Of a stretch of DNA of 64,000 bases, positions 27,985 through 35,109 are shown piece by piece (the stretch's first letter is position 1; each line of letters begins with the position of its first letter). The notes under the pieces are model-generated. The model had not been told where the DNA came from. It ran no database searches and saw nothing but the letters and a program-made list of their open reading frames with translations. This DNA comes from Marinobacter salicampi. Its GTDB lineage: Bacteria; Pseudomonadota; Gammaproteobacteria; Pseudomonadales; Oleiphilaceae. The DNA is taken from positions 248,001-312,000 of the forward strand of contig NZ_JAAMPF010000018.1 of NCBI RefSeq assembly GCF_011074795.1, read 5' to 3'. The position numbers and the translations under genes were made by a program.

Positions 27985-30690
27985 ATGAAAGCCAGTAACG
28001 GTCGCCCGTCTGAAACCGTCGAAGCCCGGCAGTGGCACGCCCTTGACGTCGACGCGGCGCGGCAATCCCTTGATGCTCGCGCTCCCCTGTCCGCTGCCGA
28101 GGCCGGTGATCGCCTGAATCGTTTTGGCGTCAACAAGTTGCCCGAGGCCGCCTCCCGGGGGCCGCTCAAGCGTCTCGCCGCGCAGCTCAGGAATACCCTC
28201 ATTTATGTTCTGCTCAGCGCCGCCCTGGTAACGGCCGTGCTCGGCCATTGGGTCGATACCGTTGTGATCCTGGCCGTTGTCGCGCTGCAGACACTGATTG
28301 GCTTCTTCCAGGAAGGCCGTGCAGAGCATGCGTTGGCCGCGATCGGCCACATGCTTGCTCCCACGGCCACGGTAGTGCGCAGCGAAGGGCAGACCCGTGT
28401 GCCTGCCGCACAGCTGGTACCGGGGGACACTGTGATACTGGAGGCCGGTGACCGGGTTCCAGCTGACATGCGGCTTGAACGATGCCATGGCCTGAACATT
28501 GATGAATCTGCCTTGACAGGGGAATCACTGGCAGTCGAAAAGAGCATCAGCAGCCAGCCCGAATCGGCCATTATCGGCGATCAGTACAGTATGGCCTTTG
28601 CCGGCACCCTGGTCACCTCTGGCACCGCCCGCGCTATTGTGGTTCGCACTGGCATTCATACCGAGCTGGGGCGCATTTCCGGCATGCTACGGCAGACGGT
28701 TTCGCTGAAAACGCCGTTGATTGCACAGGTAGACAAGTTTGCCCGTTACCTGTCGCTGGTAATCCTGGTCGTGGCGCTTGCGATTTTCGTCGTGGGATCC
28801 GTTGTGGGTGCTATGCCCCTGGCCGACCTGTTCATGGCTGTGGTCGGGCTGACGGTGGCCGCCATACCGGAGGGTTTGCCCGCGGTCCTGACCATTACCC
28901 TGGCCATCGGAGTGAGGCGGATGGCGGCCCGGCAGGCGGTGGTGCGGCGCATGCCGGTGATCGAGAGTATCGGGGCGGTGTCGGTGGTCTGTTCGGACAA
29001 GACCGGCACCCTTACCCGCAATGAGATGATGGTCACCAAGGCCTTCGCAGGCGGGCAAACGTTGGAAGTAACCGGCGAAGGTTACGGGCTGGCCGGCAGC
29101 ATCAAAGATACAGAAGTGACTGGCCCTTGCCTAGAGCAACTGGCCCGGGCAGCCATGCTCTGCAACGACGCAGTGCTGGTACGCCGGGACACAGAGGTCG
29201 AAGTGCAGGGTGATCCCATGGAAGGGGCCTTGAAACTGTTTGGCCATAAAGCCGGGCTGGATATCGAGTCTTTTTCCCGGCAGTGGCCGCGCCTTGACGA
29301 GGTGCCCTTTGATACCGCCTACCGCTTCATGGCGACCCTCAACCACGACCATCATGGCAACAAGATGGTTTACCTCAAGGGTGCCCCTGAACGGGTGATC
29401 GCCATGTGCGATACGGTCATGGGCGATTCGGGGCCTGAGCCGCTGGACGCCGATGCCGTGCACAAGGTGGTGGACATCCTGGCAGCAGATGGGCTCAGGG
29501 TGCTGGCCTTTGCCCGCCAGCCTCACGCCGGACAGGTTACTGTGCTTGATATCGGTTCCCTGCAGCAGGGGCTTGAGTTGATTGGTCTGGTTGGCATGAT
29601 GGACCCACCCAGGCAGGAAGCCATCAAAGCGATTGCCGACTGCCACAGTGCCGGCATCGACGTCAAAATGATTACCGGCGACCACGCTCTGACTGCCTCG
29701 GCCATAGCTGTCAGGCTTGGGCTCAAACACACTGCACGGGTCGTAACCGGCGCCGAGCTGGATACGTTGGGCGCGACGGATCTGGTGGCCCTTCTGGATG
29801 AGGTCGATGTATTTGCCAGGACCAGCCCGGAACACAAACTCAGGCTGGTTGAGGCGATTCAGGCCCGTCGCGGCGTGGTTGCCATGACTGGCGATGGAGT
29901 CAATGACGCCCCTGCCCTGAAACGGGCGGATGTGGGTATCGCCATGGGCATTAAAGGCTCGGAGGCGGCGCGGGAGGCGGCGTCCGTTGTGCTGCTTGAT
30001 GACAATTTCGCCAGTATCGCAGCGGCAGTGCGGGAAGGACGTACGGTGTACGCCAATCTCAAGAAAACCATTGCCTTCATTCTACCCGTTAACGGTGGCG
30101 AATCCGTAAGCCTTATCGTGGCTCTGCTTCTGGGCCTGACCCTGCCGATTACCGCGCTCCAGATTCTCTGGGTAAATATGGTCAGTTCCGTTCTGCTGGC
30201 CATGACCCTGGCGTTCGAACCCCCGGAGCCAGGTGTCATGTCACATCCGCCGAGGGCGAAGTCGGAATCATTGCTGGCGCCATTTGTGATCTGGCGGGTA
30301 GCGCTGGTGTCGTTGCTGTTTCTCGGCGGGATCTTTGCAGCATGGTACTGGTCCATGGCCCGGACCGGGGATGTGGAAACCGCACGTACCCTTGCGGTCA
30401 ACACCCTGGTAGCGATGGAAATCTTCTATCTCTTTGCTGTACGGTATCTGGATTCGGCTTCGATCACACTCCGGGGCGTGCTGGGAACACCCATTGTGCT
30501 GGGCGCCGTGGTCTGCGTATTAGCTGTCCAGCTCCTGTTTACCTATACGCCCCTGTTTAATGACACATTCGGCACCCGCGCCCTTGGTCTTGCTGAGCTC
30601 GGATTTGCTGCGGTTGCGGGGGTCTTGCTGTTGCTGATACTGGAGCTGGAAACCTTCCTGCGCACCAGGCTACGGGCCCGAACCGCCTGA
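27985..30690 (+). CDS. P2-type cation-transporting ATPase
   Basis: P-type ATPase of 901 residues of the SERCA/Na-K-ATPase-like subgroup. An N-terminal cation ATPase domain (residues about 15-85) is followed by the actuator domain with LTGESLAVEKS near 177. The phosphorylated aspartate is in SDKTGTLTRNE at residue 338, and the hinge is MTGDGVNDAPALKRADVGIAM near 633. The membrane motif AAIPEGLPAVLTITLAIGVRR near 290 is the ion-binding PEGLP of calcium and sodium pumps. Calcium or another divalent/monovalent cation is likely; heavy-metal CPx motifs are absent. A hairpin separates it from the convergent phosphoketolase gene. Confidence 0.9.
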   Translation: MKASNGRPSETVEARQWHALDVDAARQSLDARAPLSAAEAGDRLNRFGVNKLPEAASRGPLKRLAAQLRNTLIYVLLSAALVTAVLGHWVDTVVILAVVALQTLIGFFQEGRAEHALAAIGHMLAPTATVVRSEGQTRVPAAQLVPGDTVILEAGDRVPADMRLERCHGLNIDESALTGESLAVEKSISSQPESAIIGDQYSMAFAGTLVTSGTARAIVVRTGIHTELGRISGMLRQTVSLKTPLIAQVDKFARYLSLVILVVALAIFVVGSVVGAMPLADLFMAVVGLTVAAIPEGLPAVLTITLAIGVRRMAARQAVVRRMPVIESIGAVSVVCSDKTGTLTRNEMMVTKAFAGGQTLEVTGEGYGLAGSIKDTEVTGPCLEQLARAAMLCNDAVLVRRDTEVEVQGDPMEGALKLFGHKAGLDIESFSRQWPRLDEVPFDTAYRFMATLNHDHHGNKMVYLKGAPERVIAMCDTVMGDSGPEPLDADAVHKVVDILAADGLRVLAFARQPHAGQVTVLDIGSLQQGLELIGLVGMMDPPRQEAIKAIADCHSAGIDVKMITGDHALTASAIAVRLGLKHTARVVTGAELDTLGATDLVALLDEVDVFARTSPEHKLRLVEAIQARRGVVAMTGDGVNDAPALKRADVGIAMGIKGSEAAREAASVVLLDDNFASIAAAVREGRTVYANLKKTIAFILPVNGGESVSLIVALLLGLTLPITALQILWVNMVSSVLLAMTLAFEPPEPGVMSHPPRAKSESLLAPFVIWRVALVSLLFLGGIFAAWYWSMARTGDVETARTLAVNTLVAMEIFYLFAVRYLDSASITLRGVLGTPIVLGAVVCVLAVQLLFTYTPLFNDTFGTRALGLAELGFAAVAGVLLLLILELETFLRTRLRARTA

Positions 30691-30742: not shown

Positions 30743-33154
30743 CTAACCCGCCAGGCAGCCGGGGTTGCCTCGACCTTCTGCCGCAGCCAGTTCTTCCGGG
30801 CTGAGCCATTGGCTGGCCGGTCTGTCCAACAGCTCAGCACAGGCAAGCAGTGCATGTGCCCAGGTGCACCGGTTCGCGAACAGCATGCCGGCCTCGTTGA
30901 AGGTGCCGCCGCGGTTCACATAGCCCAGCACACGGCTTCGGCCGGCCTCAGGGCACAGGCGCCAGACATGGCCTCGAAATGCTTCCGGGCGCATATGAGT
31001 CATCAGGACCCGATGTTTCATCCGTGACGGACACAGCCGTTCTATTTCGAATTCTGACAGACAGGTTCCGCTTTCCCACTCGTCCCTTGGCATCCGGAAG
31101 CGACCGGGTTCCTGAACGTAGACCAGCCGGAAGGGCGTGTTGGCGTCGTGCAGGCGCTCCGATGCCCTGATCATCTCGGACAGCTGATAGGCCCCATTGG
31201 CGATCAACAGGATGGGATCGCCGGCTGAGGTGTCTTCAGCGACAACCAGAGCGCCGTCCCGGGCCAGTTGCTCGGCCTCGGCCCTGTCAAAAAGCAAGGG
31301 GCGCGAGCGTTTTGGCACCACCAGGCAGCTTAGTAGGCCCCGGGCGCTGTAGATTGAAGGAAGCAGTGCCAGGGTGCTGTTGTAGTCCGCTGGAAACAGA
31401 ACCCGCACCCCATCGTTCATTTCAGCCAGTAACGCTTCGCAAAAGGTGGTGTCCTGATGGGACTGCTCGTTCTTGCCGTTCTCCCAGGTATGAGACGTTG
31501 CGACAATGGGAAACCCGAGCCAGCCTGCAGGTCTGCCCACCTCCTTCTGGTGACGCGCAAAGATCACCTCCTGGCGAATGGCGCCGAGCATCTTCACGCA
31601 GAAAGCTTCGTAGCTGGCAACCAGGTTCAGACCGGCCTTGTTCCCAAGGCAGGCAGATACCACGGCTTCTTCATTCAGTGCAGTGATAATACAACCATGG
31701 ATGGACTCCAGCTCGTTTTCGGGTTCGGTTACCCGGTGCTTGAGTGTCGCCAGCACCCCCGAGAGCTTATTGCTTGCCAGTTCATCGGGGTTGCCAACCC
31801 GGGGTCGCAGGTCAGGGTTGGCCGCGACCAGGGCTTGAAAGTAATCATCCACAGCAAGCATGGGCGAGCATGCGCTCTCAACGCAGGGGAGTTCGGGCAG
31901 TTCGGGCGCTTTCGGGTGGCGTCGACCAAGCGGATGATCGCGCTCCCTTGGTCGGCTCTGGGCCTGGTGCTGGCTTAACAGACTACAGGCAGAGGCCAGC
32001 AGCTCGGGGGGTACCCACAGATCACTGGTGGCGCTATTGAACAGCTCCCGGGAGCGCGCATCCACGCGGGGATTGCCCGGCAGTGGCAGATTGTGCGCCT
32101 CGTTTTGGCCAGCCCCATAAAATCCATACCCTTTCACCGTCTCGGCTATGCCGTAGGGAATGGGCACGGGATAGCTTCGCTGGCCGGCAGCTTCTTCCTG
32201 GCTGTATCGGGCCAGTCGGCGTTCCATTTCGTACAGGGTACATACAAAGGCCGCCGGATCCCGGCCATCGAAACGAATCGGGTCAAAACCGCTGTGCTTC
32301 AGGTGATGAATGAAGCCATCCAGGCCCGCTCGGGTGCCAAGTTCTGTGCGCTGCTCAATACGGCGGCCATTGGCAATCATCACGGGCAGTGCCGGGCCGC
32401 AATCCTGACTCCGCCACCAGCGCGGTACCCAATCGCTGCCTCGTTGCTCTTCTGCCGCCCCATCTGACAGAAACGCGACCAGGGTTTCTCCGGGCATGGG
32501 CATGTGAGCGTACTGAAGCTCTGCGAAACCCAGGTAGCCACCCTCCAGGATGCCGCCGGCGGTATGGGCATTAACGTGACTGCCCAGGGGAGTTGCGTTG
32601 CGGCCATTGGCCTCCTGTCGATAGCTGTAGAAGTCCCTTACCAGCTGGGTAAGCCCCGAAGTGCCGCAGTAACGGGCTTCCTGCTCCGGGTGCAGGTTAC
32701 CGGTCAGCACGTTCAGGGCGTCAATCGCAGCGACGCAGTGGCCCTGACCCATGAGCCAGCTTCGAGTTTTCTCAGTCAGACTGTTCAATGCCAGGTAGGC
32801 TGCATAGGCGGGCACCATGTTGAGGGCGCCTCCGGTATGGCCCTCAGGGCTCACCTTGAAATCCTGTACATTGAGCGCCGCCCCGTCGGTACGGACGACG
32901 TTGGCATAGGTCATGTGGGCAACCAGCCACAGGCCGGCGCAGGTAAGGTGATCCAGAGCGCTGAGTTGCTGGTAGACGTCGCTGACTTCCACGACATGAC
33001 CTGCTTTTACCAGTTCTTTGGCCAGTTTGACGACCTGTTCCTGGGTTTCAGGCAGATGCCGGATTACGCCGTAGCCATCGCGCCACTGGCGAAAGTCGGC
33101 ATTGGCAGCGGCGTGCTCGTCCAGCGAATGCAGGTCAGCGAAAGATGAGTTCAT
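30743..33154 (-). CDS. Divergent phosphoketolase family protein (Xfp-like)
   Basis: Thiamin-diphosphate enzyme of 803 residues in the xylulose-5-phosphate/fructose-6-phosphate phosphoketolase family, which cleaves sugar phosphates to acetyl phosphate. All three Xfp regions can be followed: an N-terminal part with FKVSPEGHTGGALNMVPAY and MGQGHCVAAIDAL, a middle with SHVNAHTAGGILEGGYLG, and a C-terminal part with NEQSHQDTTFCEALL and GYVNRGGTFNEAGML. The cofactor motif, usually GDGEAETG, is SDGAAEEQRG here, while the later Asn (MIANGRRIEQRT) and several histidines are kept. A linker around residue 400 is low in complexity and unlike Xfp. It may be a distinct subfamily with another substrate. Confidence 0.75.
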   Translation of the reverse strand: MNSSFADLHSLDEHAAANADFRQWRDGYGVIRHLPETQEQVVKLAKELVKAGHVVEVSDVYQQLSALDHLTCAGLWLVAHMTYANVVRTDGAALNVQDFKVSPEGHTGGALNMVPAYAAYLALNSLTEKTRSWLMGQGHCVAAIDALNVLTGNLHPEQEARYCGTSGLTQLVRDFYSYRQEANGRNATPLGSHVNAHTAGGILEGGYLGFAELQYAHMPMPGETLVAFLSDGAAEEQRGSDWVPRWWRSQDCGPALPVMIANGRRIEQRTELGTRAGLDGFIHHLKHSGFDPIRFDGRDPAAFVCTLYEMERRLARYSQEEAAGQRSYPVPIPYGIAETVKGYGFYGAGQNEAHNLPLPGNPRVDARSRELFNSATSDLWVPPELLASACSLLSQHQAQSRPRERDHPLGRRHPKAPELPELPCVESACSPMLAVDDYFQALVAANPDLRPRVGNPDELASNKLSGVLATLKHRVTEPENELESIHGCIITALNEEAVVSACLGNKAGLNLVASYEAFCVKMLGAIRQEVIFARHQKEVGRPAGWLGFPIVATSHTWENGKNEQSHQDTTFCEALLAEMNDGVRVLFPADYNSTLALLPSIYSARGLLSCLVVPKRSRPLLFDRAEAEQLARDGALVVAEDTSAGDPILLIANGAYQLSEMIRASERLHDANTPFRLVYVQEPGRFRMPRDEWESGTCLSEFEIERLCPSRMKHRVLMTHMRPEAFRGHVWRLCPEAGRSRVLGYVNRGGTFNEAGMLFANRCTWAHALLACAELLDRPASQWLSPEELAAAEGRGNPGCLAG

Positions 33155-33432
33155 GACGGCCTCCAGTGCAGTCTTCGGTTGGCTGCCAGTTTAGAGGGTT
33201 TGCCGGAGGCCGGGTTTGACGCATGTCAGAGGTTCTGTAGCCCGGGAATAATCGATTGTCCCTTGCCGCTTCTGTAAAATTTACTAATGCTTTAAATTCA
33301 GAGAAGTTTTACCCTGTTTTAACCATTTTGCATTTCGTCATCGGGTCCGCTTGCTTGCAGTACCCGATCAAACCAACAATGCTGTGAAGTGAATCACCAG
33401 CCATGACGGCGCTTAGGCAGAGGAATACACTG

Positions 33433-35109
33433 ATGACTGACGACAAACGACGCCGATTCTCCGCACCCGTAGTCGATGGAATTGGCAAGTCGGCCAGTCG
33501 GGCCATGCTTCGGGCAGTCGGTTTTACCGATGCGGATTTCAAGAAACCCCAGGTAGGGATCGCATCCACCTGGAGCAATCTTACGCCCTGCAATATGCAC
33601 ATCAATGGGCTCGCGGAAGAGGCCGGACATGGCGCCGATGAGGCCGGCGGTAAAAGCCTGATTTTCAACACCATCACCGTGTCAGATGGTATTGCCAACG
33701 GCACCGAAGGCATGAAGTACTCGCTGGTGTCACGGGAAGTTATTGCCGACTCGATAGAAACCACCGCTGGGTGCGAAGGCTTTGATGGGCTGGTTGCCAT
33801 TGGCGGTTGTGACAAGAACATGCCGGGCTGCGTCATGGGTCTTGCCCGCCTGAACAGACCTTCGGTCTTTGTCTACGGTGGTACGATCCAGCCGGGTGAG
33901 AACCACACCGATATTATTTCCGTGTTTGAGGCCGTCGGTGCCTACGCCAAGGGCGACATGGACCTTATTGAGGTCAAGCAGATCGAGGAGACCGCGATTC
34001 CGGGGCCCGGGTCCTGTGGTGGCATGTATACCGCCAACACCATGGCTTCGGCCATTGAAGCCATGGGTATGAGTCTGCCGGGAAGCTCCGCACAGAATGC
34101 GGTGTCTCAGGTGAAAATGGATGATTGCCGGGCCGCCGGTGCCGCCGTGATGAACCTGCTTGAAAAGGACATTAAGCCCAGGGATATCATGACCCGGGAG
34201 GCCTTCGAGAATGCCATTGCCGTGGTGATTGCCCTGGGAGGCTCTACCAACGCGGTGCTCCATCTGTTGGCCATGGCCAGCACTGTTGACGTCGACCTCT
34301 CCCTGGACGACTTTACCCGGATAGGCGAACGGGTGCCGGTGCTGGCGGACCTTCGGCCCAGCGGTCACTACATGATGTCCGAATTGGTGGCGATTGGTGG
34401 CATTCAACCCCTAATGAAAATGCTTCTGGATGCGGGGCTGCTGCATGGCAACTGCCTGACCGTGACCGGGCTCACTCTGGCCGAGAATCTGGCGGACGTT
34501 GCACCTTATCCGGCCAGCCAGACCATCATTCATTCCCTGGCTGACCCCATCAAAAAAGACAGTCACCTGCGTATACTCTATGGCAACCTGGCCCCCACAG
34601 GTTCAGTCGCCAAGATTACCGGCAAAGAGGGGGTTCGCTTCAGTGGTCGCGCCCGGGTTTTCCACTCCGAAGAGGAAGCCCAGGAGCGCATTATGGATGG
34701 AACAGTGGTTGCCGGCGATGTGCTGGTCATCCGCTACGAAGGGCCGAAGGGCGGTCCCGGCATGCGGGAAATGCTCACCCCTACGTCCGCCATTATGGGC
34801 AAGGGCCTGGGCAGTGATGTGGCGCTGATTACCGACGGTCGTTTTTCCGGCGGCAGTCATGGTTTCGTGGTGGGTCATATCACTCCGGAGGCGGCCGATG
34901 GCGGGCCGATTGCTTTGGTGGAAAATGGTGACGAGATTACGATCGACGCGGAAACCAACAGCATTACCGTGGCGCTAAGCGAGGAAGAGCTGATCCGCCG
35001 TCGGGAACAGTGGCAGGCGCCGGCACCCCGTTATCCGCGGGGCGTGTTGGCCAAATACGCGCATACCGTGAGCTCAGCTTCCGAAGGCGCAGTAACGGAC
35101 AAATTCTGA
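33433..35109 (+). CDS. ilvD: Dihydroxy-acid dehydratase IlvD
   Basis: Iron-sulfur dehydratase of valine, leucine and isoleucine synthesis, turning 2,3-dihydroxy acids into 2-keto acids, 558 residues. Cluster cysteines are visible in [22 protein letters not shown] and [15 protein letters not shown], and [13 protein letters not shown] and [17 protein letters not shown] are family motifs. GAGGA lies before the ATG at 33433; the ATG ten codons upstream has no ribosome site. The length is of the shorter (558-residue) IlvD type rather than the 616-residue E. coli type. Possible promoter bases TTGCCG and TAATGC lie near 33260-33290, but this is weak. Confidence 0.95.

Follow-up and report, generated by a model that had tools for sequence, protein, structure and literature searches.

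A 64,000-nucleotide stretch of the Marinobacter salicampi genome (NCBI RefSeq assembly GCF_011074795.1, contig NZ_JAAMPF010000018.1, positions 248,001 to 312,000 of the forward strand; hereafter the window) carries on its minus strand a gene for a protein of the phosphoketolase superfamily. The label XFPL is used here for the family of this protein, and the genome in which it resides is 4.35 Mb in size. As far as sequence and predicted structure show, XFPL is phosphoketolase-like, and on balance it is likely to be an oxygen-controlled phosphoketolase that feeds acetyl phosphate to acetate kinase, a role that we infer for the window strain in reaction, substrate and regulation alike. The gene and the parts of it that matter most to this reading are the following.

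30743-33154, minus strand: XFPL coding sequence, 803 amino acids, phosphoketolase-superfamily protein, with its ATG at 33152-33154; an uninterrupted open reading frame (ORF) with Pfam matches
32444-32467, minus strand: codons for SDGAAEEQ (residues 230-237), placed by phmmer alignments as the counterpart of GDGEAETG, with D231 as the expected ligand of Mg-thiamin diphosphate (ThDP)
31862-31972, minus strand: inter-domain linker, residues about 395-431, delimited by family-conserved residues, with block means of 78-91 for the predicted local distance difference test (pLDDT) over residues 391-430
31670-31672, minus strand: codon for E495, counterpart of Glu479 of the Bifidobacterium breve phosphoketolase (Xfp), kept in 109 of 112 family members
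31457-31459, minus strand: codon for H566, counterpart of B. breve Xfp His553 (H553A mutant structure 3ahj), placed by alignment and structure match

A pseudogene or chance ORF was ruled out by the chromosomal copies that occur genus-wide: in near full-length alignments the window protein is 67-73% identical to the copies in most Marinobacter genomes holding one, three at 58-59% being the exceptions. The protein passes the Pfam gathering thresholds for XFP (139.6 bits, gathering 22) and XFP_N (33.5 bits, gathering 23.7), whilst no Pfam match to XFP_C was found in it at E 0.001; a canonical Marinobacter Xfp used as a control has all three domains and passes its NCBIfam model with 1529 bits against a cut-off of 962. 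In the PDB the nearest sequences belong to phosphoketolases, none with an E-value better than 1e-21. A first-pass annotation of this DNA had described the protein as Xfp-like over its whole length, which agrees with the two domains above gathering but has to be tempered by the unmatched XFP_C and by an identity to canonical Xfp of about 18-28%. In a maximum-likelihood tree of 27 XFPL rows and 11 canonical Xfp rows, all of the latter were found beyond one very long branch (support 100/100), with 4.68 and 3.71 changes per column on either side of the drawn root. The ‘subfamily’ of the first-pass annotation is thus upheld and the grouping inside the known Xfp clade that it had named as refuting did not occur: judged by sequence, XFPL is a distant sister family of canonical phosphoketolase and not a member of that clade.

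Using 39 sequences at least 65% identical to the window protein, a monomer model was computed with AlphaFold2. Its mean pLDDT is 78.5, and values below 50 are found in, for example, residues 188-192, 201-216, 351-354, 473-498, 559-565 and 749-757, several active-site residues lying inside these segments. Foldseek returned phosphoketolases at all of ranks 1-20 for the model. Using VIA-align, the top match was 3ahg (Z 38.8, root-mean-square deviation 3.6, 718 aligned residues) and ranks 1-13 were phosphoketolases with Z of 34.4-38.8, followed by pyruvate dehydrogenase E1 (Z 30.2) and transketolase (Z 29.3); these two enzymes have the ThDP superfamily fold in common with XFPL, but at Z of about 29-30 as against 38.8. 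The comparison bears on the name under which the family is filed. Fifteen plasmids (H1-H15) of alpha-, beta- and gammaproteobacteria carry relatives with identities of 47-55% and coverage of 92-98%, and 14 of the 15 records (H2-H15) are named ‘xylulose 5-phosphate 3-epimerase’, the remaining one phosphoketolase. If that name and the fold held in common with transketolase were to be followed, XFPL would be an epimerase or a transketolase-like carbon-carbon transferase that makes no acetyl phosphate. This is improbable: transketolase scores about 9 Z units below the phosphoketolase matches, the histidines typical of phosphoketolase are retained, and the papers found under the epimerase name have titles that point to other enzymes, with none apparently on XFPL as far as titles and the starts of abstracts tell. 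The RefSeq name is probably a misannotation.

The active site was surveyed in 112 distinct family sequences from the loci collected (at least 40% identity over at least 650 aligned residues). The numbering of B. breve Xfp was fixed by the structures 3ahg, 3ahh, 3ahi and 3ahj (H64A, H142A, H320A and H553A; chain number minus 20), and the roles of its residues are those assigned by structural work on the B. breve and B. longum enzymes, Glu479 being taken as the cofactor-activating residue. In the window protein, His106, His193, His354 and His566 are the counterparts of His64, His142, His320 and His553, and His139 that of His97, so that the active-site histidines are kept, as the first-pass annotation had said; Glu495, Lys615, Ser461 and Asn562 correspond to Glu479, Lys605, Ser440 and Asn549. 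Each of these counterparts, and likewise each Mg ligand, is retained by 109-112 of the 112 members, and Ser230-Asp231-Gly232, Asn262, His106 and His139 are invariant in every one. The replacement of GDGEAETG by SDGAAEEQ, also reported in the first pass, is present (a MAFFT alignment puts the stretch two residues off the phmmer placement), but to call it an altered cofactor motif was an overstatement, as only the first Gly of GDG is replaced. A broken cofactor motif was rejected because Asp and Asn, the expected Mg/ThDP ligands, never vary in the survey; indeed, since SDG is found in all 112 sequences, the change from GDG to SDG is a family hallmark that spares the metal ligand and not a private mutation. 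The ‘foreign’ linker near residue 400 turned out to be the family's own inter-domain linker, with R401, E404, R405, D406, R412 and P420 invariant in a 39-row alignment, and its reading as an insertion was rejected because it is present family-wide.

Catalytic places deviate in three of the 112 sequences only (L036, L037 and L038, from the Marinobacter genomes G019, G001 and G012), which retain open frames and have lost the counterparts of Glu479, Ser440 and Lys605, amongst others. Frames that stay open after such losses are what would be seen if XFPL were a non-catalytic, regulatory or structural remnant, but 109 of the 112 members, that of the window included, keep the counterparts of Glu479, Lys605, Ser440 and the five histidines, and such a remnant is very improbable as an account of the family. 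A canonical Xfp is present elsewhere in all three genomes, next to a P-type ATPase that is only about 30% identical to that of the window, and in two of them an RNase-type metallo-beta-lactamase (MBL) gene lies between the canonical Xfp and the ATPase gene. That the members which lost catalytic residues are all found in genomes with canonical Xfp favours the phosphoketolase reading of XFPL. In a further Marinobacter genome, G015, there is no XFPL match at E 1e-40, but a remnant of 47 residues with a stop, plus a canonical Xfp.

XFPL relatives have been found in a recurring operon module, the genes of which are MBL (here a beta-CASP RNase-type MBL-fold protein with an RNA-specificity domain), TP (‘thymidine phosphorylase family’) and PRPPsyn (ribose-phosphate pyrophosphokinase). 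The order MBL-TP-PRPPsyn-XFPL is present in plasmids of Paracoccus sediminicola and Sulfitobacter faviae, and the identical order with canonical Xfp in the last place in a plasmid of Legionella fallonii. Within Marinobacter, where ORFs at several genome loci were called mechanically, canonical Xfp sits in the module in G002 and G024 and XFPL in G028, in which two contigs read TP-PRPPsyn-MBL-small ORF-AckA-XFPL and XFPL is cut by the contig end in one of them. This exchange at one operon place favours the ordinary phosphoketolase reaction over a new substrate; the new sugar or aldehyde substrate proposed by the first-pass annotation has only the changed residues on its side. Twelve of the 15 XFPL plasmid stretches were analysed (H11, H12 and H14 were left out), with flanks of 12 or 14 kb and incomplete gene tables: TP and PRPPsyn are both present in 10, an annotated MBL-fold gene in 9, type II glyceraldehyde-3-phosphate dehydrogenase in 4 and acetate kinase in 2. 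On the Acidovorax plasmid the TP block is at least 8 kb from XFPL and on the opposite strand. Acetate kinase adjoins XFPL in Alteromonas and is separated from it by three genes in Acidovorax, and gnd adjoins it in Phenylobacterium.

Looked at from the side of TP, which was matched at E 1e-60 or better in 38 of 299 sampled Pseudomonadota genomes, 40 of 41 places were analysed as 18-kb stretches (G240 was left out), and these hold PRPPsyn in 37, MBL in 20, XFPL in 4 and canonical Xfp in 1 case; an acetate-kinase relative lies in the stretch at 3 of the 4 XFPL-bearing loci versus 1 of the 36 others. The TP protein passes TIGR02645 and falls under the cut-off of the AMP phosphorylase model (479 vs 535 bits), and its nearest solved structures are 4ga5 and 4ga4, which we take to be Thermococcus AMP phosphorylase. 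A beta-CASP gene lies within 3 kb of XFPL, usually divergent, at 30 of the 80 named genome loci, one of them in Marinobacter (L049) and the others in Pseudomonas, Stutzerimonas, Denitrificimonas, Serpens and gammaproteobacterial bins. Other genes were seen close to the module on two plasmids: in Rhizobium rosettiformans (L220), genes for arginine deiminase, ornithine carbamoyltransferase, carbamate kinase and adenylate kinase, another oxygen-free source of ATP, lie a few genes away, and in P. sediminicola (L218, 21494-26352) BREX defence genes lie within a few kb.

Two features stand ahead of the XFPL start codon in the window.

33160-33164, minus strand: GGAGG ribosome-binding site, read from the sequence, 5 nt ahead of the ATG
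33216-33229, no strand assigned: FNR/Anr-like palindrome CTGACATGCGTCAA, 75 nt before the ATG; weak, with 3 mismatches to TTGATNNNNATCAA

The core GGAG is conserved in at least 90% of the rows of an upstream alignment of 40 loci, mostly from Marinobacter. The sequence TTGATNNNNATCAA is taken here to be the FNR/Anr consensus. It was counted over 300 nt upstream plus 45 nt inside the gene, with single-letter shuffles for comparison, and was found with at most one mismatch in 34 of 112 XFPL loci (shuffles 0.75) and with at most two in 96 (shuffles 9.1), the position homologous to CTGACATGCGTCAA of the window carrying a better site in most relatives. A relaxed box pattern, found in 93 of 112 loci over 150 nt (random windows 1.66, shuffles 0.38), was picked after the strict count, which is the fairer of the two. 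The 112 loci are related, and some genomes are in twice (e.g. L020 and L050). Upstream of the ATPase gene (260 nt) the relaxed pattern is present in only 1 of 33 regions. An FNR whose N-terminus carries a cysteine cluster is encoded in the window genome and scores above the FNR model cut-off (240.5 vs 228).

Published expression data can be set beside these boxes if the family of PA3613 of Pseudomonas aeruginosa, like the epimerase-named RefSeq family, is taken as XFPL, an equation made for PA3613 by name, neighbour and locus order and not by sequence. The order in Stutzerimonas is recA, a recX-like gene, a third gene, beta-CASP and XFPL (recA tested, recX by position), which fits the locus numbers PA3617 to PA3613 as we presume them to run. 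In Table 1 of one study, PA3613 (‘D-xylulose 5-phosphate phosphoketolase’) and PA3614 (‘metallo-beta-lactamase superfamily protein’) appear as induced at low oxygen, with nothing entered under Anr; for ackA and the P-type ATPase PA1429 an increase is marked in one of the two columns, Low O2 or Anr (PMC8575079). In mice, according to a passage of another paper, a mutant with a transposon in PA3613 formed the exception in a set of eight mutants with lower lethality (PMC4676916). At 0.5% oxygen in Bradyrhizobium diazoefficiens, the phosphoketolase bll2518 is amongst the proteins and transcripts up in microoxia, and the neighbours bll3115 (MBL), bll3116 (PRPP synthetase) and bll3117 (TP family) are found in the same microoxia-up table (PMC6515984); bll2518 is known as a phosphoketolase only, XFPL and canonical Xfp not being distinguished. 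No enzyme study of XFPL was found in the literature under the epimerase or PA3613 names, mostly from titles and the starts of abstracts, with passages of a few papers.

In the oxygen-controlled phosphoketolase reading, an FNR/Anr-type regulator that senses low oxygen would switch on the making of XFPL. As a ThDP enzyme it would use inorganic phosphate to split a ketose phosphate, of which xylulose 5-phosphate is the probable one, and the products would be acetyl phosphate and glyceraldehyde 3-phosphate; the route would run from the ThDP carbanion to dihydroxyethyl-ThDP, through loss of water to acetyl-ThDP, and end in phosphorolysis; an acetate kinase encoded elsewhere in the genome would then turn acetyl phosphate into ATP. 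No match to canonical Xfp was found in the window genome at E 1e-40. If XFPL is a low-oxygen phosphoketolase, bacteria that lack canonical Xfp would have a source of acetyl phosphate and ATP that is independent of oxygen and has gone unrecognised.

A number of observations weigh against this reading. The window protein misses all NCBIfam phosphoketolase cut-offs by hundreds of bits (best 120.8 vs 777), and its identity to characterised Xfps is about 20%. The place of Gln546 is Asn in 111 of 112 family members and that of Arg442 varies (Arg in 96, His in 8, Lys in 6 and Gln in 2), so XFPL and canonical Xfp may not have the same phosphate or sugar site. On the side of regulation, the palindrome of the window is weak; the Anr column of the published table is empty for PA3613, with only ‘Low O2’ marked (PMC8575079), and in passages of the Bradyrhizobium paper none of the four genes bll2518 and bll3115 to bll3117 carries the mark of a FixK2 target (PMC6515984). 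The placing of PA3613 in XFPL is argued from its name, its neighbour PA3614 and the presumed locus numbers. As for the operon partners, TP has no match in the window genome, whose beta-CASP RNase (79% identity) lies on another contig unlinked to XFPL; ackA and pta are unlinked as well, standing side by side elsewhere in the genome; 35 of the 40 TP loci are without a phosphoketolase in the stretch, which speaks against an obligatory link and would make phosphoketolase an optional part of the module. The three members that lost catalytic residues form one clade in the tree, and so reflect one event of loss. Amongst 124 Marinobacter genomes (matches at E 1e-40 or better, with fragments and island copies included), XFPL is matched in 99 and canonical Xfp in 16, two of the latter being one fragment and one copy with stops. 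XFPL is matched in fifteen of these 16 genomes too (in 12 at 67-71% identity), and 24 of the 25 XFPL-lacking genomes have no canonical Xfp either, counts that give no support to the idea that canonical Xfp has generally replaced XFPL across Marinobacter.

Set against canonical Xfp (the PRK05261 models and B. breve 3ahc), XFPL shares the three-domain ThDP fold over about 718 residues, the set of active-site His, Glu and Lys residues, the Mg ligands and the place in the MBL-TP-PRPPsyn operon, but differs in its low identity, its own clade, SDG in place of GDG, Asn at the Gln546 place, the unmatched XFP_C and scores far under the family cut-offs. Such differences could also mean that XFPL is of the phosphoketolase type but prefers another donor, for instance ribulose 1,5-bisphosphate derived from ribose 1,5-bisphosphate, still yielding acetyl phosphate, and that the family split off for this reason. 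The very long branch between the families, marks such as Asn at Gln546, the variable Arg442 place, SDG and an ENGKNEQ loop, and the retention of XFPL in most Marinobacter genomes that have canonical Xfp are consistent with another donor, as is the resemblance of the partner TP to AMP phosphorylase, the product of which is ribose 1,5-bisphosphate. Canonical Xfp, however, occupies the same operon place, the neighbour of XFPL in Phenylobacterium is gnd, which supplies ribulose 5-phosphate, and a ribose 1,5-bisphosphate isomerase is not named in the incomplete gene tables of the plasmid stretches (no dedicated search was made for it), so a different donor is judged unlikely.

The module also raises the question of whether these bacteria ferment their own RNA. 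It is conceivable, though doubtful, that a mobile, oxygen-controlled route from RNA to ATP ends with XFPL, with RNA as an energy store under anoxia. The beta-CASP RNase and other nucleases would release nucleotides from ribosomal and other RNA, the AMP-phosphorylase-like enzyme and the special PRPP synthetase would convert these to pentose phosphates, and XFPL or canonical Xfp together with acetate kinase would then yield ATP; Marinobacter and Pseudomonas would retain only the RNase and XFPL ends of such a route. The archaeal pentose bisphosphate (AMP) pathway, which uses an isomerase and Rubisco, likewise has the AMP-phosphorylase-like enzyme (TIGR02645) that is found in operons of XFPL relatives, but these operons carry a phosphoketolase where archaea have isomerase and Rubisco, and the window genome is without a TP match. 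No literature was found that links phosphoketolase with AMP phosphorylase, with thymidine phosphorylase plus acetate kinase plus universal stress protein, or with the residues His-553 and Glu-479.

At least 588 relatives of XFPL were confirmed among at least 592 stretches matched in GTDB genome contigs. The 80 used here are mostly from Marinobacter, Pseudomonas, Stutzerimonas and Halopseudomonas, and the nearest named relatives are from Marinobacter. In viral contigs, five stretches matched a pattern and none was an XFPL relative. The family is thus widespread (99 of 124 Marinobacter genomes, and many Pseudomonadaceae) under what is probably a wrong name, and if the phosphoketolase reading is true, models of metabolism that follow the epimerase label are in error.

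Within the window XFPL is a solitary gene, flanked by one convergent and one diverging gene.

27985-30690, plus strand: cation P-type ATPase (P2 type), convergent neighbour of XFPL; an ORF, with linkage to XFPL in relatives

The diverging ORF (33403-35109) is, from its own sequence, a putative dihydroxy-acid dehydratase. The observation of the first pass that neither ackA nor pta adjoins XFPL was confirmed, none being found among the window ORFs between 24000 and 40000 when their translations were read by eye. The P-type ATPase gene is linked to XFPL in many Marinobacter and in some Pseudomonas and Halopseudomonas loci, and a relative at least 48% identical is present at 23 of the 80 named genome loci of XFPL. 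In G028, a relative that is 50% identical lies two genes off from the canonical Xfp, beyond ackA. The ATPase is a possible functional partner of XFPL.

A second XFPL copy, 53-55% identical to that of the window, occurs beside the 67-73% copy in the Marinobacter genomes G009, G354, G368, G379, G341, G383, G356 and G394, and in others. Fragments of XFPL genes are also found in this genus (L042, 10941-11760; L043, 7931-8261; G015:C12:231662-231802), which suggests repeated gain and decay in Marinobacter. L042 and L043 have neighbouring gene clusters in common.

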